This document shows, piece by piece, positions 33,765-57,405 of a stretch of 64,000 nucleotides of DNA. The DNA is from Brachycybe producta. Lineage: Eukaryota > Arthropoda > Diplopoda > Playtdesmida > Andrognathidae. Both the position numbers and the translations under genes were made by a program. The stretch lies in the NCBI GenBank assembly GCA_036925085.1, contig JAUPFP010000169.1, positions 1-64,000 of the forward strand, given 5' to 3'. The stretch's first letter is position 1. Each line of letters begins with the position of its first letter. Under the pieces are notes generated by a model. The model did not search any database and had not been told where the DNA came from. It saw nothing but the letters and a program-made list of their open reading frames with translations.

Positions 33765-36700
33765 TTATTTTTTAGACAAATCGTTTGTAATTGCACATTC
33801 AGCAACAACATCATCCGATATGACATTTCTCGTGAGATCCACCAACTGATCCAAAGGACACGTACTAGTACAATTTGGAACCGTCAGTACGAACGGTTCT
33901 GCTGTGGTCGAATTACGATACGAAAACTACAAGAGAAAATAAAATACAAATCAAATGTAATGACTTCGTTAGAGTTAACATCATATTTATGTAGTAAAAG
34001 GGTTCCTGCAAATAGGAAAATAACATCAGAGTATTAATTTGAATATAAACAAATGATTTTGTCTTAATAAAAAATTAAGCCAATTTCAACTTTTTTTTTT
34101 TGACAAGCAACTTCGCTCAGAATTTGAAATTTCTAGAATAATTCTTTTTTGTCTAATTTTCGGTATGTTTGTATCAGTATCACCTTTATGGTCGATTTCA
34201 CACAGACCACTTTCTGAAACTACTACTACTATGTGGTTAATGTGGCTTCGTTCACATGGATCACCATTGGAAATAATGGTCCACTGCTAGTGTGGCCACT
34301 GGTATAACCTTGATCATCACTGATAAACAAGGCGGTGGTTGCCACTTGTGGCTGAACTCAACCACTCATCAAAACTGTGGCAATGAACCACTCATTGCCA
34401 CTGTGGTGTAAAAATGTGCAAAAGGGTGGTGTTCACATGAACCACCACCACCACCACCACCACCACGCTGGTGGATCATGTGAACACCACCCTATGCAAT
34501 CAGTGGTTTGTTAATTAGACCACTTTATGTGGCGCCACGTCTTTAGATAAATGTTGAGTCACGTTATTGTTAAGAGACGTTAAAAATATTAAGACAATTC
34601 TATTTGGTAATTTATTAAACAATAATGAAATTTTTAACAATTTTCATCCATGTGGTTTTAGAGCAAACGACCCTTTAGGGAAAATAGTTTAAGGGCAAAT
34701 GTCCCTTTTGGTCAAATGGTTTTAGGGCAAAGGTCCCTTTACGGCAAATGATTTCAGGGCAACTGTCTTTAGGGCAAGTGTCCCTTTAGGGCAAATGGTT
34801 TTATTGCAATTGTCCCTTTAGGGCAAACGGTTTTAGGTCAAATGTTCCTTTAGGGCAAATGGTTGTAGGGCAAATATTTTAAGGCCAAGTGTCTATAGGG
34901 CAAATGTCTCTTTAGGGCAACTGTCCGTACGGCAAGTGTTTTTAGAGCAAATGTCACACACCCGAATTGACTAAATTTCGTATGAAACCAAACCGAAAAA
35001 AAGAAGTAAAAAAATAGTGATAAACAGCACCTGAACTCCATAAGATCCACTTGGATCTTTAAGAAGTTCCACAAACACGGCACTCGCATACGGTGGTGCT
35101 AAATTGTCATAAACGCCCAATGATGACATGAGTGCCGAAACTAAAGTGTCGTGCTGTATAAAAACAAACAAAAGAGAGATTTTTTTTTTGGTGAATTTTG
35201 CTTAAAATGGCTTATGAACAGCTGATTTTCGAACTCTTGATTATTCTGTATTTCAGAAGCAGAATTATAAATTATAATTTGGATGTTTTCGAAAGATAAC
35301 CTGTGTGTGCTCAATGTGATCGCGAATTGATCACAGGATTTAAGAGAAAATAGAAAGTGTTTTAGAAAATAGAAAGGTAGCTCAATCACTTAAAAAAAAA
35401 GTCTATTCAAATAAATATCTTTCAAAATAAGCTTTTTATGCGAGTTCGAAATTGATCCAACTCTAAGCAGGAATATATAGCTTGAAGACTGGGACACACT
35501 TGTGTGTCCAACGTTGGACCCATATTTGTCTCCAACATTTACCAGTTGGACACTTCTGAACCGGATAGACTGTATATGTGTGACCGAGTCACCAATGGTG
35601 GGGTGAACACATTCAAATGTTGGAGGGGGGCCCTTTGAGGCGGAACAAGAAAAATCGACAAATGCCCGAATGCCTTTCAAAACTTTCCAATGTCAAAGAA
35701 CCGACTCATTCTTCCAGCGCTGGAAGGCATTCGACATACTATGTGTCTCAGGCATTATCAGGCGATATTTCTTTTTAATTTTTGTGTATAAAAAAGTTTA
35801 TTTTGAAAGATATCGACATAAAAATACCTTGAAGCGATTGAGCTAAACTTCTAGTTTTTAAAATACTTTCTAGTTTCACTTAATTTTGCTTCAGAAAGAC
35901 AGAATAAGCAGAGTTCAATGGGAGTTCACGCAATAAAACCAATTTAATTATTTACAAAAAAAAATTATTTATTATAATTTACCGAAGAATAAAAAAATGC
36001 TTTTTGAGCCGGCAAAGATCCGTTAACTTTTTTTGCAATGTTTTCCAATAGTCGACCCAATAAAGGACCTAAAGTAAAAAAAAAACGATGAAAATAAAAT
36101 ATATTAAATTTGTTCCAAATGGTTTAAAATGAAAAATCACCTCCTAAAAGCCGACACATTTCCAATGTTTTCGACCGAAATACAAACTTTACATCTTCGC
36201 AATGAGCCATTCGAGAATAAATGCTCGGAGTTGCCCATTCGGGTAAAGACAGATTATGACATTTCTAGAAAATAATATGGAAAAAAAAAAGTTGTGTTCT
36301 CAACATAAAACAAAAGCTAAATAATAAATTTTTCATGTACAATTTTTTTTTTGTTCAGAAAATTGAAGATTTTTTTTTATTGTGCAACTATTTCTAAGGC
36401 ATAGTTTAAGGGACCATTTTAAAGTGGTGCCATATTTTTTTAAACATTTTAAGGCGACTGTAGACATTGCGAGTTTGCCTCGCGAGGCAGTTTCGCGAAT
36501 CAAATCTCGCATGTTCTAGACTATTCCTCGCCCTGAGTCTCCCCTCCACTTGACTCGCTTGGCTGAATCACTCCCCATCCGCGCACTAGTCGGCAAACAC
36601 CCTGCATCATAGACGTTTCGCGGTCGAACCTCGCGGCGTGTAGACCGAAAATGAACCAGGCCGAGGCAATCAGACTCATCGACGTTTACAGTAATTACCG

Positions 36701-39700
36701 ATTATTGTATAACCCCTCAAGACAACTGTCCGCTCACCCTTGTATCACGTAGATTCGCGAAACACATTCTGGATCGCCTCGCGCCTGCCTCGCTAGGGAT
36801 ACTCGCTATTGAGATTCGCGAGGAAAAACTCGCAATGTCTACAGGCCCCTTTTATATAAATAAAACTTTTTCCTTACAGCAGCTAAAAGATTCGAAAAAA
36901 CGGTTCCGACTTTCGAAATATTATAAATTGTTAATCCGGTCTCTCGAGTCAGAAGTTCGTACAGATCCTTCGAGAGAGAAAAAAGAGAAAAACATTTTTT
37001 AAAAAAAAAAAAATCACTAAAGCGCCGTAATTTGTTAGCAAAACCTGATTTTCTCGATCGATCTCTTTCATCTCCGGCGATTGATACTGTTCATGAAGCA
37101 ATTCGTCGTATTTCGGACACGGTGCCGCATCGTCGAATACGTAATCGATGCTCGTAGGCAGAGTGTGAATCGGAATCGGTTGCCACAGAAGATCCTCGTT
37201 CCAGATCTCGGAGTCTTCCGGTGGATACATTCCGGCCATGTTGCATTCGGCACTCATCAGAGTACGATCGACGTCCGTACTCTGAACGTAAATTTCGCTC
37301 CTGTTGTAAATGTCGTTCAGATAATTTTTGTATCTGTTTCTTATAAACTGGCCTAGTCTGTAATGTTGCTCTTTGCCAATCTGTCAAGAAATACCATGCA
37401 AAAAAAATTAAAATAGTGGTCATCAGAGCCCGGTATATTTATCGGTCAAGGCGAATGAGGTGCCTGCCACGGGCGCCGCGCATATGCCGCGTCTCTCGCT
37501 AGTTTTGCTCTTGCTTACGGAGCGCAAAACTTAGTGGCGCAACGTAACTGGATTGATAATACTAAGGGGGCACCAGTTTTATTCTTGCCTCAGGTGCAAA
37601 ATTAGCTAGTTATGGCTCTGTCTAGAAATTAAAGAATTTGCTATTTTCTGTAAAGAAAAAAAGAAAATCGTGTCTCGGGAACAACGTTTTCTATAAAGAA
37701 AAAAAATGTTTGGGAATTATGTTTTAGCTCCGCCTACCCCTTTTCTCAAGAAAGCAAATATCTCCTAAACCATATACCTGCTTTGTCCAAAAGATTAAAT
37801 TAAGTATGGTGATCTTCAGAATGTCAAGAATGTGCATCTTTTAGACTTAGTAGTGTTTGCACCAATGGTCACTTCTATTTGAGACTTTCTAAGGCATCAT
37901 GTTTGAAATTGGAACAGACTAATCGTAGGTCACTAGGTGACCTACACTTTACAACAGTAGGTCACTCAGTGACCTACACTTTTGAACTTTTTTTCTGTGG
38001 TGATTAGGTGGAGTTGTTAAATTAAGCTTGCTGTAGAAGGTCTGTGCCTACCAGAATATAAAAGTGTAGGTCACTGAGTGGCTCCACAGTTCTTCTCAAA
38101 ATAACTACCTGAAAGTGTAGGTCACTTAGTGATCTAAGATTAGTATGTCCCTCGGAAATTCTTTTATTTTAAAGAATTGTCAAGGCGGTGAATTACAATG
38201 AATCGCCTTTAGAGGAGACCAGAGTTTTATTCCCAATGTTTTCTTTCAGTAGTGAGTGGGGTATGTGGTTCAAGTCCACGGCAATTACATTTGTAAGTTG
38301 TCCGAATCCGATCGTCAGCCACGTATTCATGTTAGGATCTGTTGGAAACGGTTTTGTCGGAGTCCGATCTCCATGCCGATACACCTGCAACATCAAATTA
38401 ATTAATTTTTGCTATTTATTTTTTGTAGCTATTAGAAAACATTTTCATCCGGAAATGTTAAGTCTATTCGCTGTGGTTATCATATATAAACATGCTGGAC
38501 CTTAAGGTTCCTCTGCCATAGGTCTAATGGGCTGCTAGCAGAGTATACTTTGTATTTGTAATTGTAATATATAAAAATGCACTTGTACAATAAATAAAAC
38601 AATTAAATTTGCCCAAAAATATTTAAAAAGTTACTGAATTTTAAAAAACTGAAGTGTTGTCCTTATAGCCAACCACTTTGTATCTTTCCATAGAAAATAC
38701 ACTGCAACCAGGCGAAAAGTGGTAAAAAAAAAAGAGGTTTGTTTATTCAAACCATAAGAGAAAATATATTTTTAAACCTCGTATTTTAAATTCAAAAACT
38801 TTTTTTTTTTAAATTTTCTACCAAATTTATATAATTTATTTTGTAAAATTGCATATGTTTTGTCAACAAGCACCTTAGGGCATTCTCAGACCAGCGACTT
38901 TTAGTGATCGAGATGGAATGTGGAAAAAGTGAAAAGTGCGTGGTCAAAATCGACCACAAGAGTCACCTCTATACAACCACTTTTTTCAGTTCATTCAGCT
39001 ACACAAGGACCACTTTCTTCCAACAGCTAGCTGGCAGCTAGTCAACTCGAATGTTCGGTTTCGGCCACATGTCAACCACATTTTGCAGTAAATCTCTACC
39101 ATTAAAATTTTCAAATGTGTAGCTGTTATAGTTTTTTTTTTAGTTTCAATTCAAAACAATTGACTTTGCAACCCAAATTCAATTTAATAAAATACTTTGG
39201 GCCTGGTGCCCGTCTGGGACATTCTGTATATTGAGCTCATCAAGGGCACAAAGCTCCTTTATACACAGGCCACTTTTTGACGGCATAATGATGTCGGATT
39301 GTCGTCAAAACCGACCGTCTTGTATCTTTCCATAGAAAATATAGTGCAACCACTGCCCAACCACCTTCGACTTCGTTTTGCAGGAGAAAAGTGGCCAAAA
39401 AAAAGTGGTCTGTGTATTCCAACCCTAAGGGCCTTGTTTTCATTCGGGTGAAAATTTGAACTTTTTGAAAATTTCAACTGGTGAAAAATAGAACAAAAGT
39501 GGCCCCCGTCTAATCATAATTATAGGCGGGGGGGGGGGGGGCACTTGTGTTCTATTTTTCACCAGTTGAAATTTTCAAAAAGTTCAAATTTTCACCCCAT
39601 TGGAAACAAGGTTTTAAAGGTGCATTTTCGCAATAAAAAAAATGTTGACCAACAACAAACGTTGCCAATTTCACTTAGTTTTTTTTTAATTTGAAAAATC

Positions 39701-40189
39701 ACTCTGCAAGCGGGCAAAAAGTGCCTGTGACAGAGGGACAGAAGTTCAACTGCAGCATGTGAAATGCATTTCAAAACCCAAACAAAATAAAATTGATCAA
39801 TTTCTGAAAATTCTTTTTGTTTTTGAAAGAATTTAGCATAAAATAAATCCAAATTCAAGTAGATAACTCGACAATCTAAATCCAAATTGTACCCGCGCCT
39901 CTAAAAAGGTTCCAACTAAAAAAAAACTAATATTTTATTTAAAACCATTGCACAGGAGTTTTTTTAGTTAGAAGCTTTTTTTAAAGGGTTCAATTTATAT
40001 TTCAAGTGGCAAAGTTTCCTTCTTGAATTTGGACCTTATGACACTTTTTAATATTATATGAAAAACAATAATACTCACAATTTGCAACAGTTCCAATTGT
40101 GATTTGGCCGCAAAAGTGTGTCGGATGTTAAAAGCAATTAAAATACACAGCATGTAAATTGTCATTTTAAAATTCAACTCAGCAGACAT
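33765..40189 (-). CDS. Secreted histidine acid phosphatase (ACPP/ACP2 family), active-site intact
   Basis: Eight exons in reading order: 40189-40079, 38384-38289, 37380-37045, 36967-36878, 36264-36141, 36068-35983, 35153-35031, 33926-33765. All are GT-AG with agreeing phases, giving 375 residues. The signal peptide is near residues 9-27 (MTIYMLCILIAF). The catalytic motif VYRHGDRTP is at the exon 2 start. GFGQLTN, STDVDRTLMSA (holding the Arg79 equivalent of human prostatic acid phosphatase), LWQPIPIHTLP, FYSSHDT (His-Asp proton donor pair) and APPYASA follow. Cysteines match most family disulfides, but the partner at APPYASA is Ala. There is no C-terminal membrane segment, so it is secreted or free in the lysosome. 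It should hydrolyse phosphomonoesters at acid pH. The TAA stop overlaps an AATAAA. Confidence 0.95.
34192..34545. mobile_element. Relative of the GTGTGAA/CACTTTGTG foldback family
   Basis: Starts near TTTCACACAGACCACTTTCT and ends near ACCACTTTATGTGGCGCCAC; ACCACC repeats lie in the middle. It resembles 28467-29314 and 46329-47310. Exact ends are uncertain. It is in the last intron of the minus-strand acid phosphatase. Confidence 0.5.
34665..34960. repeat. Degenerate minisatellite, TTTAGGGCAAATGTCCC type
   Basis: About 15 imperfect copies of a roughly 18-20 bp unit containing AGGGCAAATG in the last intron of the minus-strand acid phosphatase. Confidence 0.8.
35180..35925. repeat. Dispersed palindromic repeat, copy 1
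   Basis: Words such as AAATAGAAAGGTAGCTCAAT and the inverse ATTGAGCTAAACTTCTAG, and ATTTTGAAAGATATCGACAT, mark an inverted structure also seen at 51545-52165, with a fragment near 33030-33110. Between the arms (about 35484-35755) lies a second segment with GGGACACACTTGTGTGTCC. Family unknown. In intron 6 of the minus-strand acid phosphatase. Confidence 0.5.
36451..36850. mobile_element. Foldback MITE, TAGACATTGCGAG arms
   Basis: The left arm CTGTAGACATTGCGAGTTTG mirrors AAACTCGCAATGTCTACAGG. CG-rich words (CTCGCGAGGC) are inside. The flanks TTA/TTTA fit a Harbinger-like TWA target. In intron 4 of the minus-strand acid phosphatase. Confidence 0.7.
37925..38135. repeat. Cluster of AGGTCA palindromes
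   Basis: AGGTCACTAGGTGACCT (37927), AGGTCACTCAGTGACCT (37959), and two half-decayed copies near 38068 and 38119, each followed or preceded by TACACTTT. AGGTCA is the nuclear-receptor half-site, but a transposon origin is equally possible. In intron 2 of the minus-strand acid phosphatase. Confidence 0.6.
38520..39428. other. Intron 1 sequence with diverged repeats, no gene
   Basis: Contains two copies of TTGTATCTTTCCATAGAAAA (about 38678 and 39320) with CAACCA... and AAAAGTGG words, probably two diverged ends or copies of one element. No open frame of interest. Confidence 0.45.
39429..39612. mobile_element. Foldback MITE, GGGCCTTGTTTTC arms
   Basis: The arms GTGAAAATTTGAACTTTTTG and CAAAAAGTTCAAATTTTCAC, preceded by GCCTTGTTTTCATTCGGG, are separated by a G-run spacer. 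Arms match the 102-bp repeat units at 30968-31760 and the start at 63933. In intron 1 of the minus-strand acid phosphatase. Confidence 0.75.
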
Positions 40190-40880
40190 TCTAATTACAA
40201 AAAAATCATAAAATCAAAAGTATGAAAGTAATAAGAAAAAGTCACATAGAATTGAAATTTTGGACAGCTGCAGCTTTTAACTACAGACAAAATGTCTAAA
40301 ATATAACAAACACACAAAAAAAAAAAATTCAAGTACCCAATATTGAACTCTGGGAAATAAAATTATCAAAACGTCAAAGATAAATAAAATTACAGGGTGT
40401 CTCCAAAGGAAGTATCTGATATCAATTATACACACACACGCGCGCATAGGCGTAAATGGAGGGGGAGGGGGGGGGCACAGGATGGCGGTCGCCACCCCAA
40501 AGAAATTAAAATGCTTTTCTTTTTTTTTAAAAAAGCAAATTATTTCAATTTTTTTAGACGTTTAACTTGCAAATTTTGCAATAAAACAGGATACAAGTTC
40601 ACGCATTTGTCACCAATTTATATCCAATTTATAAAAAACTTGGTCTTTTTTGTTCTTGGTCCCCCAACTCTTGGCCACCCCACTTTTTAATCCCATTTTA
40701 CGCCTATGCACACACACCATTTCACGGTCACGATACTCTATAATTTTTTTTTGTTGTAAAATTGATTATATAGGCCTAAATTTGTAAATAAAATTCATTT
40801 TTGGTATTTCTCTTTGTGTATATATAGTCAATGAACATTTAAATAATTAACATAACTGTTGTCTGAAAAACATACACAAT
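40190..40880. other. Shared upstream region of the acid phosphatase pair, left part
   Basis: AT-rich; holds TACAGGGTGTCTCC at about 40394 (a Tc1/mariner-type end without a clear partner) and a G run near 40460. The promoter of the minus-strand acid phosphatase must be here; no box could be assigned. Confidence 0.45.
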
Positions 40881-40985
40881 ATAGCCATAAATTAAGATAC
40901 TATCTTCGTTTAAACTAAAGGCTAATGTTTCGACTATATTATAGCCATCATCAGTGCCTATATACAATATTATAAAAATTATGAA
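40880..40985 (-). mobile_element. Possible Penelope-like element end with a hammerhead-like core
   Basis: On the minus strand the segment reads CTGATGATGGCTATAATATA then GTCGAAAC. CTGATGA and GAAAC separated by a foldable GGCTAT/ATAGTC stem resemble the hammerhead-ribozyme core carried by Penelope-like elements. No reverse transcriptase is seen nearby. Confidence 0.35.
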
Positions 40986-41029
40986 AAAATATAGAAACTA
41001 CGGAAATTATAAAAAATTATAAAAATTAT

Positions 41030-41690
41030 AAAAAATGAGAAAAATGAGAAAAATGAGAAAAATCAGAAAATTCAGAAAATTCAGAAAATTCAGAAAAAAA
41101 AAACAGAAAAATCAGAAAAATCAGAAAAATCAGAAAAAATCAGAAAAAAAACAGAAAAATCAGAAAAATCAGAAAAATCAGAATTATCAGAATTATCAGA
41201 AAAATCACAAAAATTAGAAAAATCAGAACAATCAGAAAAATCAGAAAAAAAACAGAAAAATCCGAAAAATCAGAAAAAAAACAGAAAAATCAGAAAAATC
41301 AGAAAAAAAACAGAAAAATCAGAAAAATCAGAAAAATCAGAATTATCAGAAAAATCACAAAAATTAGAAAAAATTAAAAAAATTAAGAAAATTAGAAAAA
41401 TTAAGAAAATTAGAAAAATTAAGAAAATTACAAAAGTTAAGAAAATTACAAAAATTAAGAAAATTAAAAAATTAACAAAACTGGAAAAATAAAAAAAATT
41501 AACAAAATTAAAAAAACAAAAAAAAAATTAAAAAAAACAACAAAATTAGAAAAATTTAACAAAATTAGAAAAATTTAACAAAATTAGAAAAATTTAACAA
41601 AAAAATTTAACAAAATTAGAAAAATTTAACAAAAAATTTAACAAAATTAGAAAAATTATAAAACTTATAAAAATTATTAAAATTAGGAAA
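41030..41690. repeat. A-rich arrays (AAAAATCAG, then AAATTAGAAAAATTTAAC)
   Basis: A 9-bp unit AAAAATCAG with variants to about 41370, then AATTAAGAAAATTAG and AGAAAAATTTAAC units. No gene. Confidence 0.9.
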
Positions 41691-41894
41691 ACTATAACTA
41701 GAAACATACAAAAAGCTCAACATACCAAAAATGAAGATGTAATACACTGTGCTAACAGTACAGAACACCATTTGCAACACATTTATCTGTATTGTAGAGA
41801 GCATTACAATGTTCTAGTCTTAGTTGCACAGCAGTTGTTGCAACAAATAAGAAGACGAAATTAAATAATAAGACTACAAAAGTCACAATGAATA

Positions 41895-42332
41895 TACAGG
41901 GTGGCTATAGTGTCTGAAACCATACGCTGATATACATAATTATAAGTGGTTTATTGATATGACATTTACAAGGACATCTTGAATCATAATAAAAAAAATA
42001 GCACACTATCTAGGTTTCCAGACTTTATGGCAACACTGTATCTTTGTATTTGGCTAACTGTGAACATAACTCAGTCAGTCCAACACTTCATACAAATAAA
42101 AAAATTAAAAAAAATATGCGCATTGATTTCATAAATTATGCAATTTATGCAAAGTTCTAGCCTTGAGTTCTATCCTTTTGTAATCTTTTCATTTGTATAT
42201 ATTTTGCAATAGCTAATTATACAAAAAAATTATATATATATTAAAATGGTGTTTTTAATCGACAATTGTCTGATGAAATTTATTAAAATGCTACTTTTCG
42301 AAACCATTTACTTGTCAAACAAGACACCCTGT
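41895..42332. mobile_element. Small TA-flanked element with CAGGGTG ends (Tc1/mariner-like)
   Basis: Starts TACAGGGTGGC and ends GACACCCTGTA. Short inverted ends next to TA suggest Tc1/mariner. No transposase. Confidence 0.5.
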
Positions 42333-42527
42333 AACAATTACAATTAAGTTCTTTGTGTATTTGAGTCTTTTCTTTGCAAAGAAAATTTGACAAATTAAAA
42401 TATCACGCATATTATTTTTTTTTTCAACTGCATGACGCATTTTTAATTTGAGGCTTACAATGAGAACATTCAAACATGACAATATTAAAGTTTAAAAAAG
42501 ATTTCGTTATTGTAGAAAATTTAACTA

Positions 42528-43033
42528 CAACTCCATCTTGTCGTTTTGAGCAGACGACAACAAGACAAATGAGTGTTACTATATGGGGTTACTAAAATTG
42601 CAAGAAATATAGTCTCACAATCGTTCAATTAAAATACATTAAAGCGCAAAATGTAATAGAAAGTATTGTTCATTAAGTGGTCGATTTATATAAATTTTGA
42701 AAAGGTCTTTCTATTTTTTAAATAATGCTTAAAGTCTTTAACTTCATCAGCTATGTTGAATCCCATAGGATAGAAAAAAAGCATTCAACAAAAAGTTTGA
42801 AGAACTCTCGTTAAAAATGATTTAGAGCAATAACAAACAAATTAACACGTGCTTCCATGTAATGGCTTCCAGATGATTCCTTTTTATAAGCTTAGCACGT
42901 GCAATTATTTTTCTATTAATTTCTATGTGAGTTCATACGTGGACAAAAACCATTCAAAACCCATTTTTACATCAAAAACGATCGCAGCGCCTACATTCAG
43001 AGAGATTTTGCACTAAACACTGTATCTAGGCTC
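42528..43033. mobile_element. TTAA-type element, truncated copy
   Basis: Closely follows 19539-20043 (CTCCATCTTGTCGTTTTGAG ... CTGTATCTAGGCTC) but lacks the left inverted end. Confidence 0.75.
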
Positions 43034-43515
43034 TTATTAGAGCTTTATTTCTAGTAGTTGAACTTGTACCTTTTAGCAATCTATATCTGTCTGACTAGCA
43101 TTTATTCCCTAGAAATTGCTATTGCTTTTTTTGTTGTAATTTGAAGGGCTTAGCCCTAAGTTCAACAATGAGGTTCAACTCTGAATGAGCTTTCAAACAA
43201 ATCACATCACATTCTGTCATGTCAACAGCTAATTGTAACTAACCTGTGTAAAACAGGCTATTGGATTTCATCATTTGAAGTGGATTGAATGAATCCAACT
43301 CTCCAATTGTATAACATTTCAAAATCAAATCCAAATAATTAAAAATGTTTATGAAATCTAATATCTAGCAAAAACATTTTCAAAACCAAATCCAAATCAA
43401 ATATTCTTAATTTTTGATTAGTAAATGCTAGCAAACTCTTACAACTTTTGCATTTCAATTGCAAAATCCTTAAAGAATATTATTTTTGAATCTTGTTTTA
43501 AGTTTGCAAATAACA
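43034..43515. other. Intergenic, no gene seen
   Basis: AT-rich DNA. A stretch near 43150-43200 (GGGCTTAGCCCTAAG) is palindromic. Nothing else recognised. Confidence 0.45.
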
Positions 43516-43706
43516 CAGGCATCTGTAGACAGCTTCAGAATTTTTCTGGCTCCGATCTTTTATGAGGGTCATCAATTTCTAATTGGTTTGCTACTGGGTC
43601 TGATGTCACATGCCCCGCCCTTTTTATTTCTAATTGGTTGGTATTTGGTCTGACGGTGATAAAAGGGCGGAGCCAAAAAAATTCTGAAACTGTCTACAGA
43701 TGCCGG
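43516..43706. mobile_element. Foldback element, Mutator-like, TIR subfamily A, copy 2
   Basis: Same ends as 12252-12442. The flanks are TGCAAATAACA (43505-43515) and TGCAAATAACT (43707-43717), identical over 10 bp, which supports a 10-11 bp target duplication. Confidence 0.85.
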
Positions 43707-44228
43707 TGCAAATAACTGCCAACTTCTATATATTGATACATTAAGGCTGGTTTTCATTGTTTAGTTAATTTTAGTTAACTTACATACTGAAATACATTGG
43801 TGCCCAGATTGCCTTTTACATCGAAATTAGATTTTTGTTCTCTGTAAGAAAAAAAAAAGTGACACACTTGTGATTCTTCATTTGCTTTCCTCACCTTTGT
43901 TAGCACGTGCTGTTCTATACAACCAGATTTACATTGTATAAAACGCACTGCAGAGAGCAACTCCACCGTACTCCTAATTTATCTCAAGTGATGTCCAAAA
44001 AGGCCCCATTGTCTTGCAAATGCTTACAAACTGTGCCACGCTGTGGAGTCCAGCCTTGGAGTGCAATGCAGCAAGTTTAATTTTTCTAACTGGCCGAATT
44101 GTAGAAAAAACATTGGCTAAACTCAAAATTTCAGCAAATTTCAGCCGAAACGAGCCGAATTCAGCCGACTGGCCGAAAAGTGACCAAATGGCAAAAATAA
44201 TAAATGAATTAAAAACAAACTAATTATT

Positions 44229-44804
44229 ATATGTATATTAAGCCAGGTCTCTGTGTGTGTGATCTAACGCTGTAGAAACAAGGACAAAAACCTTGAAGCA
44301 CGTCGGAATTTATATAAATTTAAATGAATAAATGAACCGCTTTTTTTCTCACGGTCAACTATATGCTGCACACTCCCCATCCAAGAACCCCATTGATATT
44401 AAATTGGAGACGGGAAAAGGTTGGAAAGTGTAGAAGGGGAGAGAGAGAAACGTGGAGAGGGAAAAAGTGGGAGGGGGTGACTGAAATTGAAATGAAAGAA
44501 GTAAAAAAGGAACAAACGACGCGCATGCGCACACCAGAGAAAATGAAAATCTCATTTTCTCTTTCAAACATAAAAAGGGGAGGGGATAATAGTAGCAAAA
44601 TGAAACTAGAATTTATCACGGGCAACTAACTGTGCCCAGCATTAGACTTTCTTTTCCTCTGCCCTTTTATGAACGTCATCAATTTCTAATTGGGTTTGTT
44701 ACTTGGTCTGACGTCATAAAAGGGCGGAGGAAAAGAAATTCTAATGCTGGGCACAATTGCGTGTGAATTTTGCTCCCGTCATTTATGACGGGTTACCCCA
44801 CTAG
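44229..44804 (+). mobile_element. Helentron/Helitron-like element, copy 3 (long form)
   Basis: Starts ATGTATATTAAGCCAGGTCT, carries the inner foldback (about 44622-44763, GTGCCCAGCATTAGA arms), and ends with the hairpin CCCGTCATTTATGACGGG and CTAG. Confidence 0.8.
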
Positions 44805-45168
44805 TATATTCATACTCAGTGACCAAAACATCTCCTTCCTATGTTACACAATTTTAAATTTGATGCATAATTGATTTGACTGACAACGCACATGTGAACT
44901 GAATTCGGCCAGGTCAGTCGAATTCAAGGAATTTTCTTAAAAAAAAACAATTCATAAAAATAAAAAGCATATCAATTATGTAAATGATGTAATCTATTGT
45001 ATCCCATAGAAAAATATGAAATTAATAAAAAAAAGTTTGTAACTGCATAGTCAGCAGCCACAATTCCTCCCACTCCCACCCCTTCCTTTATGTCAAAGAA
45101 ACCTAAACGACAAATTAGTATGCTGGTCGTTTTGTAAATTGGCCTTTGAATGAATGAATGAATGAATT

Positions 45169-45733: not shown

Positions 45734-45734
45734 G

Positions 45735-45825
45735 TAATTCGTTATGTACCAACCAATTAGAAGTTGCCGGTCGTCATAACAAGGGCGGAGCCAACTGAAG
45801 TTCTCCCCGATTTCTAACCGCATGT
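45735..45825. mobile_element. Half of a subfamily-B Mutator-like foldback
   Basis: Matches the right arm of 27025-27230 (AACCAATTAGAAGTTGCC, GTCGTCATAACAAGGGCGGA, TTTCTAACCGCATG). The left arm is missing. Confidence 0.7.
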
Positions 45826-46328
45826 CATTGCAATTGTTATTTGGTTTTATATCTTCGCATGGTGTGGCAATTGGACTTCTGTCCCTCTGCCACATGCCTT
45901 CAATGCTACTCGCAGAGCAATTTTTCAAAATTCAAATTCAAATATGTTTCCGCTACTAGACAAATCGATGAATATCGAAATGGGCGTTTGTGTTCGGTTT
46001 TAATGTGCGCTACATTAAAAACCAACACAAACACAGCTGGAATATGTTAATAAAATTCTGAATGTAAAAACTTTAATATCAGTCCCCCCCCCCAAAAAAA
46101 ACCTTCAAAATTATTTTTTAAAATGGCTTTAAGCCAATATTTTGCAATTTTAACTGAAAAAAAAAAAACACAAATCAGTGACCCTGATTTCTTTTTAATA
46201 AACTGCAATTTTTCAAGTTCGTGGTTTCCATCAAATCAATCAATAATCACAAATGACATTAATCAATCACACTCCATACTACTCTCCTGCCACACACATA
46301 CACACCCATAAGTGGCCATACTTTACTT

Positions 46329-47310: not shown

Positions 47311-47580
47311 AAAAAAAATGTTTTTTTTTTGATAGTTTTGATATGAAAAATATATTGGAAATAAACCAGAAGAACTTTAGAATCATACAATTTGAAATAA
47401 AGTTCAAAAGGGCACATTCACTCTCATATACAGTAGATAAGAGGAAATCAAATGACATTTCGTAAATTTCTAATTGACAGTTTATCTAAAATGTATATTT
47501 CTGTTTAAATCGCAAATGATGGAAGTTTGAATTTATTAATTGTGTAAAAACCACATCAAAATAAAAAACTGCAAACAACC

Positions 47581-50500
47581 ATGACAAATTTAATAGTTAT
47601 TTTACTAAGTTTGTTAAGTTTTCATTCATTGCACGGATGTGAGTGGGATCATCAACCTTTGACACTTAAACTGGTTCAAGTAGTAAGTTTTTTTTTCTCC
47701 AATTTTACAAGAATAGGTTATTTTTTTTTTTTTAGAAAATATATGCAAATCAGAAAAAAGAACATATTCTTGTTTATTCTGTATTACTGTATTTTTCAGA
47801 AACAGACATTAGGAATAAAATTTCATGTGATTTTAGCAACTAATATTTTCAAAATGAATTATATCCTCCTTAAGTGGATTTCCAAATTTCGTGTGACAAT
47901 ATGTCAAATTTCGAAAAACTTCCAACTGTCAGAAACCTTTATTTGCATATTAATAAGGGGCGTACTATTAGTCTATCACCTATTACTCAAGTTTCAAAAT
48001 TCTAACATAAATCCTTTAATGTAACATAACATACTTTATTTCAAGTAGATGCCAAAAATTGTTGAAATTAAAAATATTTTTAATGATTTTCACCACGAAA
48101 AATGCTTTTTTTTTTGTGTACAGTCACCATCCTGTTTAGAGAGAAACTGGACACAAGACAAACTTAAAAAAACTAATAATTTCAAAGAACAATTAAAAAC
48201 TAGATTATTGTAACAGTGTGTGAAGCCCATGTTAAGGAACTCAGGTCAGAATCTTCTTTATTTTGGGCAGAAACCGCTTTAGATTTGGAGAAAATGTTGT
48301 ATTTTTTGGACTGATCTAATCTGGTGCTGAGGGACCGGTCTCCCAGATGTGTCACACTATCCAAAAGCTTGACTGGATAAGAGCTGGAGTGAACAAAAGC
48401 TGAAATGAACATTAACTAACTTGACTGAACGAAAGGCTAGAATATACAATGGCTAAAACTAGACTAGAGATTTACAGAACAATTAAAAGCTAAACTGTGC
48501 AAAAGCTGGACTGGACAAGAGCTTGACAGAACAATTAAAAGCTAGACTATACAAAAGCTGGACTGGGTAAGAGCTTGGCAGAACATTTCAGAGCTGGACT
48601 TGGCAAAACCTTGACTAGACAAGAACTTGATAGAACAATTGAGGGTGGTATTCTTAATGATAGCTTAGCCAAAGTTTGAGCTAAACTCTTGAACTTTATG
48701 GGTTTAGCTCAAACTTTGGCTAAGCAGTCATTAAGAATACCACCATAAGAGATAAGACTATACAAGAGCTGGACTGGGCAAGAGCTGGACTTTACAAATC
48801 CTGGAATGAACAAAAGCTGGACAAGAAAAGAGCTATACAAAATAATTAACAGCAAAATTTACTGCTAAAATATTTCAGCTACATGTCCACGGAGCTTGTT
48901 CTTTCGGTCCATCAGTTTCGAGCGAAGACAAACTAAAAAGCATTGAAACATCACAATTAACAAATGTAAGCCATATTGAAAATTGAAGCGTAGAATCAAA
49001 GCAAATGTTTAAAAAAATATGCACTTCTTTTAAATATACAATTTACAGGCAGCTAAACAAGAACAATACGCATTCGGAACTTATCTACGAGAGAAGTACA
49101 ATGATTTATTGGGCGATGTGTACAACCGAAGTCTGACGGTTGCTCGTAGTTCGGATTACGACAAAACACTGACCAGTGCCTACTGTGTCCTAGCCGGTCT
49201 CTTTCCACCGAAAGCGAAACAAATTTGGAATAAAGCTTTCAAATGGCAACCTATTCCTGTTCATACTGTGCCAAACCATCAAGATTATGTATTTTATAAT
49301 AGAAGTTGCAAAATATTGTGATGTTTTATTTTGAAAAATAACATAACAATGGGTGTTTTTAATAAAATTGAGTATCTGCTCATTGCTCAAGTTTTTAGAG
49401 CAGGTGCTCGCATTTGTGTGAATAAACAGGTGCTCTCTCATTGGTGTGAATAAAATGCGTGAGTAGATGTTTAAACTTGATAGCACATTTTTCATGTTGT
49501 AAGCACCTGCTCAAGTTGCGAGTATGTGCTTCATTTTTCATATGAATAAAAATGAGAAGATGCTCTACATTTTTTTTAATTGGTTAGAGACCAGTTTCAC
49601 GATGTGAGAGTGAGCACTTACATTGCCATAATAGGTGCTCCGTTTCTTTTAAAAAAAAACATTATTCATATGAAAATTGAGCACATACTCATTTTTTGAG
49701 CATCTACTCCGCTTCTATATTTGAGTAGCTACTGCTCAGAAAACGTTGAACTTTATTAATACCACCCATTGGTGCTTAGTTTTTCGTATAAATAAACATG
49801 AGCAGGTGCTCCAGATTTTGTGAATCGGCTAGGGGCCAAGTTTTATGTGAGAGTTACTCACATTGCCAGAGTAGGTGCTCCGTTTTCTTAAGGCAACTTT
49901 ATTCATATGAAAATTGAGGGCACATAAGTTATTTCTTGAGCTCCTACTCCACTTCTTTTTGAGTAGCTGCTCGTGAGTACCTGCTCAACTTTATTAATAC
50001 CACTCAAATAATATGTTTGCATTCCAATAGTTGCTCGACATAAATTCGCACTGCGAATTGTATAATCAACTATACAGTCAACTAAAACTAGGAAAAAATG
50101 AAATGGTAAATTTTCTAACAAAAAAAAAAACAGAATTATATATATATTAAGCCAGGTCTGTTTGTGTGGTTGTGTGTGTGTGTGTGTGTCACAAAAAACC
50201 TTGAAGCGCGTCGAAATTCATATAAATTTAAATGAATAAATGAACCGCTTTTTTTCTCAAGGTCAACTATATGACCATGATATTAAATAGGAGGGGGGGG
50301 AAGGTTGGAAAGTGTCGAGGGGGGAGAGAAACGTGGAGGGGGAAAAAGTGGAAAGGGGGAAACTGAAATGAAAGGAGTAAAAAAAGGAAAAAAAAAAACG
50401 ACGCACATGCGTACAATTGCCTGTGAATTTTGCTCCCGTCATTTATGACGGGTTACCCCACTAGTAAAATAATAAATGTGATTCTTTTTGTTGATAATGA

Positions 50501-50963
50501 CATATAGCTATGGACTGTATCTTTCAAAATATAATTATAGTCGTTAATAAAAGAAACAGTGTTAAAAACACATAGTCATAATAATTAACTGCAACATCTG
50601 ATAACCTTAAAAAATGAGACCAGCCAACCTCGTAGATATTAAACACTAGTGGGGTAACTCGTCATAAATGACGGGAGCAAAATTCACAGGCAATTGTGCG
50701 CATGCGCGTCGTTTTTTCCCTTTTTTACTCCTTTCATTTCAATTTCAGTCACCCCCTCCCACTTTTTTCCCCCTCCACGTTTCTCTCTCTCCCCTCTACA
50801 CTTTCCAACCTTTTCCCCCTCTCCAATTTAATATCAATGGGGTTCTTGGATGGGAAGGGTGCAACATATAGTTGACCTTGAGAAAAAAAGCGGTTCATTT
50901 ATTCATTTAAATTTATATAAATTCCGACGTGCTTCAAGGTTGTACAGCGTTATCACAGACAGA

Positions 50964-50998
<35 letters not shown>

Positions 50999-53900
50999 CT
51001 GGCTTAATATATATATAATTTTATTGCTTTATAGCATTTTATACTGATTTTTTAAATATTTTTTGACCATTGTTAACAACTAAGTATATTCATCAATTTT
51101 TAAACTTTAAAGTTTAACTTTAAATTTTTTTTTTAAAAAATGAAAAAGATAAAAATTAATAATATTTTTTTTTTCTATTTTTCCCTTAGGAATTTACAGA
51201 TTATTTAAAGAACATAATTGAACGAGAAACCATAGGATTAAAAGAAATGGGATTTATTGCTGAATACTTAACTTATTCAGTAATTATTCTAATCAATTTT
51301 AAGCTTTTTTTTTTTAAAAAAAAAGTAAACCCGGCGATTAAATTTAATTTTCAATTTTGGTTTAGAAAAACTTTAGCTCGGACATTCTCCAATGGGCCAA
51401 TGAAAATGGACATTCTGTTGCAGATTTAGCCAAAAAGGCAATTCGAAAATTGTTCGAAACTCAAAAATTACAATTTCTAAAAAGTGGTGGGTAAAAAAAA
51501 AGAGTAATTTCAATTTAAAAAAGGCAAATAAAATTTGAAAGTGTTTTTAAAAATTAGAAGGGTAAGCTCAATCACATTAGGATATTTTTCCAATATTAAG
51601 ATTTTTCAAAATAAACTTTTTATGTGAGTTTCAAAACGCCCCAAATCTTAAGCAGACATGTTAAATTTTGTCTATAAAAGGTTTATTTTGAAAGATATCA
51701 ATATGAAAATACTCTCAAGTAATTGAGCTACCCTTCTAGTTCCTAAAACACTTTCTAGTTTCTTTTAATTTTGCTACTGAAAGACAGACTGTTCCATAAA
51801 CCATCTTCAGGTAATTTTAAAGCGTAAACATCACTCGAACTTTGATTATTCTTGTCTTTCCGAACGGAAAAATTAAAAGAAACTAGGTAGTGTTTTAGAA
51901 ACTAGAAGGGTAGCTCAATCACATTCGGGTAGTTTTCAATGTTGATATCTTTCAAAATAAACTTTTTATGCGAGTTTGAATATGACTCAACTTTAAGCAG
52001 ACGATATGTTACATTTTTGTCTATAAAAGTTTTTATTTTGAAAGATATCAACGTGAAAATACTATTAAGTGATTCACAGTTGCCGTTCTAGTCTCTAACC
52101 TACTTTTTAATTTCTCTTTAGTGTTGCTTCTGAAACGCAGAGTTCGAAAAGCAACTGTTCATAAAACATAACTGAAAATATTATTGAAACATGCTTTTCC
52201 AAAACGTTGTCCTTCACTTCAAAGTACAAAAACGTTGTAAATGCCAACATGCAACATATGTGCTGACAAGTTGTCACTATAGTGACATTGTCGACATTTA
52301 CAACCGTATTACAGTCACTAAGTGACTGGCCATGTTGCCACTCGAATTACTATTGGCTGTTACAACGTTATGACTTGCAAAACAATTCTACTTCAGTTTT
52401 TTTTTACCACTAAAGCCTCGTTTTCACGATGGTAGTTTTCACGATAGTTGCTGTCATAAGAGTAGCAACTATCGCTAGAACTATCATCGTGCAGACCACA
52501 TGATAGTCACTATTGCACTGTTGCGATAGCACTATCACACTATCTCGTTTGACTAGATATTTGATAGTACTATTGCGACAGTGATAGTTGTTGAGTGACC
52601 AATTATAGGGAAATATTCACTTTGTAGGGAAATTTGGCTTCTGGAGGGGGAGAGAGAGAGAGAGACAACACTGTTGTTGACTCAATGATATCTGTGAAGT
52701 AGACGTCACACTGTCATGTGACAGACAACTATCACGTTATTTCAAGACATGGTAGACAGTTGCTATCGTGAAAGTGAACTATCGCAACTTTCATGACAGC
52801 TACTCTGACTATCGCCGTGAAAACGAGGCTTAAGAACAGCACTTTTGTGACAAGGAAATTTCCCTGCAAAAAAACATGGCGTTTACAACCCATTTTCGAT
52901 TAAAAACGTATTTTACCCTAATGTGGCATTTACAACGTTATGGAAATGCAAGCCTTGATTAATTTTTTTTCACAATTTTTTTTTTAAAGTTAATTTAAAT
53001 TTTAAAAACTTAACAAAAGAAATTAGAAAATTCTTGAAAATAAACTTTTTATGCAGTTTATTTTTTAAAATTCCAATTTTATCTTTGTAAACTACTATAA
53101 AAAAACGTTTAAATTAAAAAACCATCATCATAAAATTATTACTTAATTCATTATCTATTTAAAAAAAAAGGCAAATTAAGCATCAAAGTTCAATCAAACA
53201 ATATCGGTAATTTATGGGCAACATAATTATGAAACTAGAAAAATTACAACATTTTTAAAATGTTGCTTAAAATAAAGCTAAGCTAAATTACAACATTTGT
53301 GCTGTATTATAATTTAAAAAAAAAAATCCAGTTACAACTTTCTAAAATGTTGCTTAAAATAAAGCTAAGCTTAAAACAGCACAAGACAAGACTAGTCCTA
53401 TATTGAGTCTACACAGAATTTGAAACTGAATTCGTTATTATATAATTTTAAAGTTGCTTCTAAAATATTGTTGATTAAAATAAAACAAAACTTTAAAAAA
53501 TAATACAGAACTCAATATAGTGAGTCTATCGAGTTTTTATGTTTAAATCCATTTAAAGCTTACCTTTACCTCAAAGCAACGTTTTAAAATACGACCGGAT
53601 ATATTTTTTTTTTATAAATCTACCATAAAATAATTTAAATAAATGTAAGACTTGGGTATAAAATATAGACATATATTAATATTTTGTCTATTCAAATTTC
53701 GCAAATGATTTAATTACATTTATGTATATTGCAAGAGTTCCTTACACAATTATAGCTGCCAAAATTACAAGCATTGTTTATATGAAGGACTTCGAAATCA
53801 TATTTTACGGGTTTTCTTTTTTCATTTCTTCATATTTTGTAATATTTTATAACTTTTATGAGATTCTTGCCAGAACTTTATCTGATACCGTTGGACTAAT

Positions 53901-56900
53901 TTGTTTTTAGTCGCTTTGGTTTTTTTTAATAACTTAATTGAATATTAATTCAATAAAGGTTATTAAAGAAAATTAAGTCTAGAATTACAAGAATAACTCT
54001 GCAAACAACCTACAACAGCGAGTGTTTTGATCAAATTTGCAATCAAAATTGCGCTTTTGCTTGAAATCAGGAACTGGCGCTTTATTCAAGCTTAAGATTA
54101 CTGTTTGAACTTGAGCAAGATCTTGTGTCTTGCTAAAGCAAGTTATAAGCATATTGCTTGTATTCAGCAATAGCTTGTGCTTTGCTCAAGATAAAGATTG
54201 TAGCTTGAATTCAGTTCAGCTTCTGTTCTACTCAACTTCAACTGAATTATTATTCTAACCAAGCGCAAATTGTGTTTTAGTCCAGCTATTATTGATTGAT
54301 TTCAGCAAAAAACTTGTAATTTCGACTAAAGTTTATTCATTGAACTCAAGTCTCAAAGAGTCCAACTGCTCTTCTGCTGAACCAAGCACAAATTTTGTTT
54401 TATTCAAGCTTAAAACTTATTGTTTAAACTGAAGAAAATCTTGTGTTATGTTATGTTATTGCTTGAATTCAGCCTATTGTGTTTTACGCAAGCTTTTTTT
54501 ATATGGGTTTCGAAATTCATGAAGCCTTTGATTGATAAGTAGTAAACCTTTTACGGCTTACAATCATCAAGGTTTCTTAAAAGCACCTTATAATTCAGAT
54601 GCAGCTAAAGGAGTGCGTTCAATCACTAAGCTTTAAATTAAGCTGCTCAAGTAGCTTTCAAAGTATGAGGCAAAGTTAATGTAAAAATCAAACATCCATC
54701 CCATTTTTTTTTTGCAATAAAAGACGCTTCATACATTAAAGCACCTTTCGCAGCTTCAAATTGGGCTTAGAAACTGAACCCCTTGCATTGATTCCAATGT
54801 ATTTTTATAAAATTATCTTAAAAGGTATGTTCTTGAAGGAAATCATTGGCAATATTCAAAGAAAACTGAACTCTTCGGATCCTTTTGACAATGACAAAAG
54901 GTTGTTTCTTTATACTTCGGTAAGAAATCCATTGCTAATTCTAAAATTTAAAATAATTCATATTTTAATATATATTTTTTTCTTTGTTACAAAATTAGAA
55001 TGATCTGCTTCTGTATGCATTCACATCTCTGTTAAATTTAACAAATGGGGCAGAAATCCAGATTAACGACAAATCAGCTTTAATTATAGAATTACTTCAA
55101 GCCTCGAATGAAACACTTTTCATAAAGGTATAAATAAGAAAACAAAATCTGATTTTATCCAAATCAATACAGATTTTTAAGGTTTAAGGCCCTGTTTCCA
55201 CTTGACGAAAATCGAGGGTAAAAAGTAGGTTCAAAGTATAAAGTTGAATAATTTCAAGTTTTCAACTAGTTTGAATTTGTTTTTTGTTTTTTTAACTTTG
55301 TGAGCTTCTATTATTCAGTATTTCAGGTAATTTAATGTAATTTAATGCATTTTAATTATATTTAAATATCGAAGGTTCTTTTTTCTCTCATGTTCGTCGT
55401 CGCGCTACCTTCGTCTTTGCCGATCAACAATTTTAACTAGCTTTTGACGACTTTCGGGTTGCCGAAAGCTATCCGAACGAGATCTTCGTTTCTCGCTTAC
55501 TCTAGCTGCTGACTCCGCAATCTATATTTGGAGGCAAAATAAGACAAACGTGAGTCAAGATTCCCAATTTATTGTGACGACCTGAAAAATATGTTTTCAG
55601 GGTGTCACAACACTTATTTCAATCGAAATATTGACAAGAAATGACAATTTAAGGTTTAGTTAAAGTGGTAGGGCGATAGGGGTTTTCCCCGCTTCAATTG
55701 ACCTAACGTCATAAAGCAAACCAAAATACTGAGAAGGCAGGCCACATTTGCTCTCTCATCTTGAATAGCTTTTCTCCTAATAGTGATATTATTTGGATAA
55801 CAGACCATAAATAAGCTGTCATTTTCTCCAGTTTAAATCTTCACTGTTTAATAATTTGTGTCAAGTGGAAACAGGGCTTCATCTGTTCACTTTATTTAAT
55901 ATCAGAAATATCTTTGCAGTTTCTTTATCGTAACGACACGACAGGAATAACTAAAGTGTTACAAGTACTGGGATGCGAGGCCTTTTGTCAATGGGAAAAG
56001 TTTTTAAAACTTACGAAACAATTCATGTCAAAAGATATCGCAAATGAATGCAAGTCAAACGCTTTGACTGAATTTCATGGAAGTGATAACACGGCAAAAG
56101 GCAACTCAGATTTCATTCTTTCTTCTTCTTACTTTTCGTAAAATTTGTTAAAATATTTTAAATTTTAATAATTTAGAGAGAAAAAAACAACAAGATTTTT
56201 GTATATAATTATAAAATTTATATTAAAATTGATGAAGTTCAAAATTTTATAACTTTTTTTTATATTACTAAACTTCAAATTTAATAAATACACGTTTTAT
56301 AAAAATAACGTTTCATAAAAATTTTATTTTAAAAAAATTCATAATTTTCTAAAAATTATCTTTTATAAAATTTATTTTCTAAAATTTATTCATTCAAATA
56401 TAATTCAGAATTTGGTAAAAAAAAAATTATACTTTATAAAAGTTCAAGATTTCACAAACTTTACTTCTATTGAATAAAATTCAAAATTGTATAAAATTTA
56501 TTAGAAAATTCAAAATTTCATAAAAATTTATTGTTTCTATTAAATAAAATTCATTATTTCAGAAAAATTATAATTGGTAAATGTAAATTGTAAATCTGTA
56601 TAATGTCGAACTTTATAAAACTATGATTTTTTTTAAAATATAAATTTTATAAAATTATGAATTTTTTAAAAAATATAAATTTTATAAAATTACGAATTTT
56701 TTAAAATATAATTCTTTTTTTTTATAAAATTATGAATTTTAAAATATAAATTTTATAAAATTACGAATTTTTTAAATATAAATTTTCGAAAATTATGAAT
56801 TTTTCAAAATATAAATTTTATAAAACTATGATTTTTTTAAAATTGTTTTATAAAATTATGAATTTTTTATAATATAAATTTTATAAAATATAAAATTCAA

Positions 56901-57405
56901 ATTTTATAAAATATAAAATTCAAATTTTATAAAATATAAAATTCAAATTTTATAAAATATAAAATTCAAGTTTTATAAAATATAAAATTCAAGTTTTAGA
57001 AAATTATAAAATTTAAATATTTTTAAACTTAAAAAAAATGTATGGTTTCTATTGAATAAATAAAATAAAAAATGTATTTCTTTAGAAAAATCAAAACTTT
57101 CATAAAATTAATTTTTCTCATTGAATATAAATAATTCAGGAATTAAATAAGAGGTAGATATCTTTATAAAATTCAACATTTCAAAAATTACATTCACAGA
57201 AAATTGTTTTAATTTAAAAAAAAAATCCTTTTAAAATATTTGTCATAAATTTTTTGCAGGTTCTCCATTGGATTTTCGACTTATCACTTTTGCGGGAACC
57301 GCTGCCGTCGTAACGATAGGAATCATGGCTGCAGTTTATAGCGTATTACGCAAAAGAAATCGTAACATTTTACGAATTCGAAGCAACTACACAGAAATAA
57401 AATAA
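47581..57405 (+). CDS. Histidine acid phosphatase-like pseudoenzyme with C-terminal membrane anchor
   Basis: Exons 47581-47682, 48879-48965, 49049-about 49288 (or stop at 49321), 51190-51279, 51366-51486, 54825-54919, 54999-55127, 55920-56082, 57260-57405. Exon sizes mirror the minus-strand paralogue (exon 4 is 90 bp in both). The signal peptide is residues 1-19. Compared with human prostatic acid phosphatase, Arg11, Arg15, Arg79 and His257 are Val, Cys, Lys and Asn (motifs LHVHGACS, SSDYDKTL, YTSNDLL); only His12 and Asp258 remain, so catalysis is unlikely. The last exon gives a membrane segment (LITFAGTAAVVTIGIMAAVY) and a tail ending NYTEIK, a YxxphI motif as in lysosomal acid phosphatase. 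Exon 3 reads into TGA at 49319; about 22 family codons and the donor are gone. A GTATTT at 49289 is the nearest phase-matching donor and would give 390 residues. Reading past the exon 8 donor gives a short soluble form ending at 56141. It may be a pseudoenzyme or a decaying gene. Confidence 0.75.
48390..48860. repeat. Degenerate AAAGCTGGACTGGACAAGAG repeat
   Basis: Many imperfect copies of AGCTGGACT, ACAAGAGCTT and GAACAATTAAAAGCTAGAC fill intron 1 of the pseudoenzyme gene. Similar words occur at 29325-29465 in the CD36-family gene. A foldback at 48643-48744 lies within it. Confidence 0.7.
48643..48744. mobile_element. Short foldback MITE
   Basis: Near-perfect 100-bp hairpin: GGTGGTATTCTTAATGA and TCATTAAGAATACCACC, then TTAGCCAAAGTTTGAGCTAA and its inverse. 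Low divergence suggests a recent copy. Confidence 0.8.
49350..50006. mobile_element. TIR element with GAGCAGGTGCTC words, beside the cut exon
   Basis: The left end GGGTGTTTTTAATAAAATTG mirrors CTTTATTAATACCACCCATT near 49770, and a second partial unit runs to TTTATTAATACCACTC near 50006. It starts about 30 bp after the TGA in exon 3 of the pseudoenzyme gene. Related words occur at 26820-27000. Confidence 0.65.
50137..50464 (+). mobile_element. Helentron/Helitron-like element, copy 4 (short form)
   Basis: Starts TATATATATTAAGCCAGGTC, ends with the CCCGTCATTTATGACGGG hairpin and CTAG. The inner foldback is absent: ATGCGTACAATTGCCTGTGA joins the two sides directly. Confidence 0.8.
50646..51018 (-). 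mobile_element. Helentron/Helitron-like element, copy 5 (short form)
   Basis: Reverse orientation: CTAGTGGGGTAACTCGTCAT to CAGACCTGGCTTAATATATA. Tail-to-tail with copy 4, 181 bp apart. It has the same internal junction as copies 2 and 4. Confidence 0.8.
51545..52165. repeat. Dispersed palindromic repeat, copy 2
   Basis: Several inverted units with AGAAGGGTAGCTCAATCACA, AAATAAACTTTTTATGCGAG and the inverse ATTGAGCTACCCTTCTAG, as at 35180-35925. Family unknown. Confidence 0.6.
52193..52953. mobile_element. Foldback element with AACGTTGTAAATGCC arms, split by a nested MITE
   Basis: The left arm GCTTTTCCAAAACGTTGT mirrors AACGTTATGGAAATGCAAGC on the right, with palindromic inner words (GTCACTATAGTGAC). 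The MITE 52414-52830 is inserted in it. Confidence 0.6.
52414..52830. mobile_element. TAA-flanked Harbinger-like foldback MITE
   Basis: Ends AGCCTCGTTTTCACG and CGTGAAAACGAGGCT are inverse copies. TAA flanks both sides (52411-52413 and 52831-52833). Internal ACTATCG/CGATAGT words repeat. No transposase. Confidence 0.8.
52954..54824. other. Intron 5 of the pseudoenzyme gene, no further gene
   Basis: AT-rich. A repeated phrase TTGCTTAAAATAAAGCTAAG occurs at about 53262 and 53344. The part 54030-54480 repeats CTTGTGTTTTGCTCAAGCTT-like words. A 62-codon frame at 53722-53910 has no family features. Confidence 0.5.
55186..55879. mobile_element. Element with AAGGCCCTGTTTCCACTTG ends
   Basis: AAGGCCCTGTTTCCACTTGA and TCAAGTGGAAACAGGGCTT are inverted ends of a roughly 690-bp element in intron 7 of the pseudoenzyme gene. 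Its end is only 41 bp before exon 8. The terminus resembles 39429 and 63933. No transposase. Confidence 0.75.
56590..57000. repeat. AT-rich tandem repeats
   Basis: Units like ATAAATTTTATAAAATTATG, then about five copies of a 23-bp unit AAAATATAAAATTCAAATTT in intron 8 of the pseudoenzyme gene. Confidence 0.85.

Follow-up and report, generated by a model that had tools for sequence, protein, structure and literature searches.

We analysed bases 1–64000 of contig C169 of the millipede Brachycybe producta (hereafter the window), which belongs to a genome of 295.3 Mb in 442 contigs. Odorant receptors of the 7tm_6 family, which is regarded as specific to insects, are present in this genome, with 8 matches above the cut-off. 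The window carries two histidine acid phosphatase genes in divergent, head-to-head orientation, one on the minus strand (40165–33765) and one on the plus strand (47581–57405). Such a pair had been proposed in a first-pass annotation of this DNA, and both genes are indeed found there, matching PF00328 (His_Phos_2) with 130.7 bits for the minus-strand gene and 66.8 bits for the plus-strand gene, against a curated Pfam cut-off of 23.6. Their start codons lie about 7.4 kb apart, and the arrangement therefore does not imply a shared promoter. The nearest solved structures of both proteins are prostatic acid phosphatases (PAP, or ACP3; PDB 1nd5 and 1cvi), with E-values of 3.2e-80 for the minus-strand protein and 1.1e-30 for the plus-strand protein. 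The minus-strand gene encodes a complete histidine acid phosphatase of 367 residues in 8 exons; the plus-strand gene encodes one open protein of 415 residues in 10 exons, with no stop in 415 codons. The proteins are identical to each other at 108 of 366 aligned positions (30%), and to human PAP at 41% (minus) and 26% (plus). The exons are listed below, with residue numbers of mature human PAP, in which the catalytic set comprises Arg11, His12, Arg15, Arg79, His257 and Asp258.

47581–47682, plus strand: exon 1 of the plus-strand gene; start codon and hydrophobic N-terminus; ends at the equivalent of PAP residue 8
48879–48965, plus strand: exon 2; LHVHGAC, with Arg11 replaced by Val, His12 kept, and Arg15 replaced by Cys or a gap
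49049–49288, plus strand: exon 3a; SSDYDK, with Arg79 replaced by Lys (codon 49163–49165); WQPIPVHTVP at 49244–49273
50031–50105, plus strand: exon 3b; Cys129, which pairs with Cys340; preceded by an intron common to seven of eight modelled paralogues
51190–51279, plus strand: exon 4
51366–51486, plus strand: exon 5; phase 1 at its end, a feature shared with the minus-strand gene
54825–54919, plus strand: exon 6
54999–55127, plus strand: exon 7; Asn-Asp at 54999–55004 in place of His-Asp (His257 replaced by Asn, Asp258 kept)
55920–56082, plus strand: exon 8; Cys315, Cys319 and Cys340; its donor is the sole phase-1 GT after Cys340
57260–57405, plus strand: exon 9; transmembrane segment, then a cytoplasmic tail with NYTEIK at its end
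40079–40165, minus strand: exon 1 of the minus-strand gene
38289–38384, minus strand: exon 2; VYRHGDRTP
37045–37380, minus strand: exon 3; STDVDRTLMS with Arg79; corresponds to 3a and 3b fused
36878–36967, minus strand: exon 4
36141–36264, minus strand: exon 5
35983–36068, minus strand: exon 6
35031–35153, minus strand: exon 7; HDTLV with His257 and Asp258
33765–33926, minus strand: exon 8; terminates in NDLSKK and a stop

The two genes differ in the residues that define the enzyme. Alignment to human PAP places all six catalytic residues in the minus-strand protein, including the RHGDR motif, the Arg79 equivalent and the His-Asp pair that the first-pass annotation had read there. At the same sites the plus-strand protein shows, in order, Val, His, Cys or a gap (depending on which of two alignments is used), Lys, Asn and Asp, so that the VHGAC, Lys and Asn-Asp of the earlier reading were correct to the letter: four of the six catalytic residues (Arg11, Arg15, Arg79 and His257) are replaced, while His12 and Asp258 remain. 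The catalytic loop reads LHVHGAC where the active form has VYRHGDR, and is three residues shorter. The RHGxRxP motif, which covers Arg11, His12 and Arg15, is present in the minus-strand protein and absent from the plus-strand protein, where Lys, Asn and Asp occupy the places of Arg79, His257 and Asp258. The plus-strand protein keeps every one of the four cysteines that form the PAP disulfides (Cys129, Cys315, Cys319 and Cys340), which extends the earlier remark that several cysteines persist. Arg11, Arg15 and Arg79 have a role in phosphate binding. In PAP, His12 is the phosphate acceptor and Asp258 the proton donor; Arg11 and His12 are reported to be essential, and substitution of Arg15, Arg79, His257 or Asp258 to impair activity severely, according to the available text of a review (PMC3676848) in which the present Cys315 is numbered Cys314. 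A separate catalytic first half of the plus-strand gene, which would have undone the case for catalytic loss, was rejected: a search of all six frames of the window for RHG.R found none besides that of the minus-strand gene.

The gene model of the plus-strand gene is intact. All nine introns are bounded by GT..AG, all seven introns of the minus-strand gene are matched by plus-strand introns of identical phase, and an AATAAA signal lies at 57418, 3' of the stop codon. The N-terminus encoded by exon 1 resembles a signal peptide by eye. Human exon 1 likewise ends after residue 8 (PMC3676848, in the text available), and PAP thus resembles the plus-strand protein both in its exon 1/2 boundary, at the same residue, and in the cysteines of both disulfides. 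The first-pass annotation had counted open frames in seven of nine exons. This count does not hold: what was taken as exon 3 consists of two exons (49049–49288 and 50031–50105), and all ten exons are open. A pseudogene with a broken exon 3 was rejected for the same locus, the stop after ...RSCKIL being intronic, with exon 3b resuming at 50031. Similarity alone makes exon 3b no more than suggestive: of 1500 shuffled introns 86 reach its score, 23 of them with the cysteine in place, and in another run 14 of 300 shuffles reached it, as did 3 of 24 other blocks of the window. Spliced alignment of the minus-strand protein to the plus strand selects this exon with a score of 299, against 38 and 39 for two reversed controls; the corresponding alignment of human PAP (score 219) uses other segments. 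We accept exon 3b because the 3a/3b intron is common to seven of the eight modelled paralogues. Six of these, designated C1A to C1E and C52A after their contigs, share the same phase-0 intron after residue 141 of the minus-strand protein, and in C52B it lies one residue further; the model of C52C is without it, and five genes on contig C113 were read in their earlier exons, short of this intron. Inclusion of exon 3b restores Cys129, the partner of Cys340. The minus-strand gene has lost the 3a/3b intron (within 37045–37380) that the plus-strand gene and seven of the eight modelled paralogues keep. In the plus-strand gene this intron (49289–50030) holds a tandem pair of repeats resembling miniature inverted-repeat transposable elements (76% alike), and the next intron, 3b/4 (50106–51189), holds a fold-back repeat of several hundred bases that also occurs at 23709–24224, 33219–33586, 44211–44814 and 58823–59916.

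The catalytic losses are confined to one member of the family. At least 15 loci in the genome carry sequence of the exon 3a type. Contigs C1 and C113 have five each and C52 has three; the remaining two are those of the window. Outside this 15-gene set, contigs C5, C13 and C23 contain more distant matches to PF00328. RHGxR and Arg79 are intact in all 14 of the other genes found. Exon 7 was read in nine of these 14, the five C113 genes being read in exons 1–3a only; His257 is kept in nine of nine and Asp258 in eight of nine, the ninth, C1A, having Glu at position 258. The plus-strand gene is the only one of the 15 genes found with these catalytic losses. Its exon 3a has its top genome match, besides itself, in C1B (G000 contig C1, ~20.49–20.50 Mb), at 54%; C1B shares a phase-1 membrane exon and tail with the plus-strand gene, and differs from it in having six of six catalytic residues intact. 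In C1A (G000:C1:20447237-20456452), where His-Glu replaces His-Asp at 257/258, the activity may be altered. Single-exon queries against viral contigs and prokaryotic genome contigs gave 10, 6 and 49 stretches that match the pattern, none of them a relative by tblastn.

Constraint on the plus-strand gene was assessed with a codon branch model of seven genes and 327 codon columns, with the C113 and C52 genes and human PAP left out. Averaged along the plus branch, which is a long one, the ratio of amino-acid to silent change (omega) is 0.146, against 0.193 elsewhere, and so lies near that of the active relatives. Fixing omega at 1 on this branch costs 14.2 log-likelihood units. The observed statistic (twice the log-likelihood difference) is 28.4, or 26.3 without exon 3b; it lay between 0.05 and 6.6 in eight simulations under neutrality, and between 8.2 and 55 in eight simulations under a single omega. 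The model rejects neutral evolution for the plus branch, averaged along its length; the first-pass annotation had named such neutrality, in combination with absent expression, as the outcome that would speak for a plain pseudogene. The plus-strand gene combines catalytic loss with purifying selection, the latter as a branch average, and this combination is that of a pseudoenzyme. At sites invariant in ten relatives it keeps 19 of 25 non-catalytic and one of five catalytic residues; when seven PAP-like relatives define the invariant sites, the counts are 36 of 57 and one of five. In a neutral model with AT-rich composition, a stop results from 6.4% of substitutions. The probability of finding no stop in 415 codons is then 0.019 after 0.05 neutral substitutions per site, counting stops alone, and that of an intact frame is 0.028 after 0.02 neutral substitutions per site, with indels added at an assumed rate; both values hold partly by construction, exon 3a having been ended ahead of a stop.

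Beyond the phosphatase domain, exon 9 of the plus-strand gene encodes a segment with a mean hydropathy of 2.14 over 19 residues, followed by RKRNRNILRIRSNYTEIK. The YTEI in this tail conforms to the YXXPhi sorting motif. The resulting architecture, with a transmembrane segment in its own last exon and a short tail with a tyrosine motif, is ACP2-like, and at the equivalent place in the active paralogue C1B a phase-1 exon also encodes a transmembrane segment and tail. In human LAP the membrane segment likewise sits in its own last exon, exon 11 (PMC3676848, in the text available). Because of the membrane exon of C1B and the exon 11 segment of LAP, the tail looks ancestral and appears to have been retained by the plus-strand gene; where the tail had earlier been described as "gained or kept", the active paralogue favours kept over gained. 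A scan for membrane exons found none adjoining the minus-strand gene, all candidates lying at least 3.7 kb downstream. The same scan listed other hydrophobic segments, such as a phase-1 segment some 440 bases into C1E, and gave no hydrophobic candidate for C1D.

The best preserved part of the plus-strand protein, nearest to the family majority, is WQPIPVHTVP (PAP 106–115), and its top 15-residue windows start at PAP 106–108; those of the minus-strand protein and of C1B start at PAP 72–80, around Arg79. According to the available text of PMC3676848, dimerisation of PAP is regulated by Trp106 and His112, and the PAP monomer has very low activity; the same text also raises the question of whether acid phosphatase heterodimers have regulatory subunits.

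Taken on these grounds, the product of the plus-strand gene is probably a type I membrane pseudophosphatase, serving as a binding protein or as a dimerising pseudo-subunit. Its ancestor would have been a histidine acid phosphatase of lysosomal type (ACP2-like) that already carried the membrane tail. The luminal fold would be retained, together with both sets of disulfide cysteines, the stretch linked to dimerisation and the tyrosine-based motif of the tail. Because the three catalytic arginines and His257 are lost, it should not hydrolyse phosphomonoesters. We infer that binding is its most likely mode of action, whether at the cell surface or in the endolysosome: the altered pocket might hold a ligand, or the protein might pair through the Trp106–His112 segment with itself or with an active paralogue, as a pseudo-subunit. 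The pseudoenzyme reading of the first-pass annotation is upheld by the catalytic losses, the intact frame of ten exons, the rejection of a neutral branch, and the presence of RHGxR and Arg79 in all 14 other genes. Its further suggestion of a "binding or decoy protein" is borne out in part, binding being favoured and a decoy appearing less likely because the protein carries a membrane anchor.

Several observations weigh against this reading. The plus branch is the longest of the seven, at 1.6–2.0 substitutions per site against 0.43 for the minus-strand gene, and its position in the tree has weak support (34%). Synonymous sites are near saturation, and omega, being a long-branch average, includes any past as an active enzyme. 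At sites where PAP and the minus-strand protein agree, the catalytic loop of the plus-strand protein keeps 3 of 12 residues and the rest 58 of 125, a difference that is not significant (Fisher p 0.23); for the whole of exon 2 the counts are 6 of 18 against 55 of 119 (p 0.45). The retention of His12 and Asp258 is compatible with residual or altered activity. The shifted conservation peak is no proof of a new role, since active C1A has its top window at PAP 260–264.

Inactive histidine acid phosphatases are already known. XcAP-1, -2 and -3 of the flea Xenopsylla cheopis (PDB 8gdl) are salivary proteins that are inactive on p-nitrophenyl phosphate, have both His12 and His257 replaced, and bind leukotrienes as well as biogenic amines, of which serotonin is present in the XcAP-1 crystal; XcAP-1 is without beta-strand 3 of the dimer and has been proposed to be monomeric (PMC10728186, in the text available). 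These proteins and the plus-strand protein have in common the histidine acid phosphatase fold with loss of catalytic residues, which in the flea arose by duplication and divergence. The loss of one or both of His12 and His257, typical of the flea proteins in the account available, is also seen in the plus-strand protein, in which His257 is gone and His12 kept. It differs from them, as far as that account goes, in the loss of three catalytic arginines, in its membrane anchor and in keeping the WQPIPVHTVP dimer segment, whereas XcAP-1 has lost the dimer strand. The trees built here are without flea sequences. ACP2/LAP and testicular ACPT, in the descriptions available, share with the plus-strand protein a signal peptide, a luminal phosphatase domain, a transmembrane segment and a tail; LAP is catalytic, whereas the plus-strand protein is without four catalytic residues. 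PAP, too, is an active dimer, unlike the catalytically depleted plus-strand protein. In the open-access literature we found only the flea salivary binders as inactive histidine acid phosphatases, which does not prove that none are described elsewhere in print. What appears to be new in the plus-strand protein is the membrane anchor together with the kept dimer segment. A membrane-anchored inactive form with a dimerisation segment and a lysosomal-type tail would indicate that re-use of this fold has followed a second route, and would make the question of regulatory subunits in acid phosphatase heterodimers testable, using two neighbouring genes.

Within the pseudophosphatase reading, it is conceivable, if on balance unlikely, that the plus-strand protein is a dedicated pseudo-subunit that pairs through Trp106–His112 with the product of the minus-strand gene or of C1B and anchors, sorts or damps them; such a protein would amount to the regulatory subunit of a heterodimeric acid phosphatase. 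A role as a ligand-binding scavenger, sequestering small molecules as the acid phosphatase-like proteins of flea saliva do, seems doubtful. The plus-strand protein belongs to the same fold family and has lost catalytic residues, and some flea transcripts, in the available text of PMC10728186, keep RHG and are without the second histidine only, as it is; yet it has a membrane anchor and tail, and keeps the Trp106–His112 segment, while that text describes XcAP-1 as having lost beta-strand 3 and proposes that it is a monomer. Nor does it match the flea structure 8gdl at E 0.001, the minus-strand protein giving a weak match (E 0.00056).

There is little likelihood that the plus-strand protein is a changed enzyme, in which a new active site, built from His12 and Asp258 together with Lys79, Cys15 and Asn257, serves another substrate. 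The phosphate acceptor and the proton donor are both kept, and losing a catalytic residue need not abolish activity, as noted in the accessible part of PMC10728186; however, Arg11, reported to be essential, is lost along with Arg15 and Arg79, and the catalytic loop is shortened by three residues. We consider it equally improbable that the locus is a young pseudogene, functional until recently and now decaying with its frames still open, a view to which the long branch, the repeats in the introns and a record consisting solely of genomic DNA lend something, against the absence of stops in 415 codons (P 0.019 at 0.05 neutral substitutions per site, partly by construction), the GT..AG boundaries of nine of nine introns, the rejection of a neutral branch, and the implausibility of four catalytic replacements and an exon 2 sharing only 8 of 29 residues with the minus-strand gene arising in so short a time.

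Rfam at gathering thresholds gave no match in the 12–64 kb portion of the window. A gene for a CD36/LIMP-2-type scavenger receptor (20184–26913, plus strand), with PF01130 matches in five of the nine frames submitted, three of them above the cut-off, is oriented towards the minus-strand phosphatase gene. An open frame at 58433–58717 on the minus strand has two weak Pfam matches, both below the cut-off. We take this frame to resemble a reverse-transcriptase fragment of a long interspersed nuclear element. A long (ATT)n trinucleotide run occupies 30263–30500. Positions 1–12000 are minisatellite-like, with almost all purines on one strand and a GC skew above 0.9, and their stop-free reverse frames of up to 1978 residues look like artefacts of the repeat.

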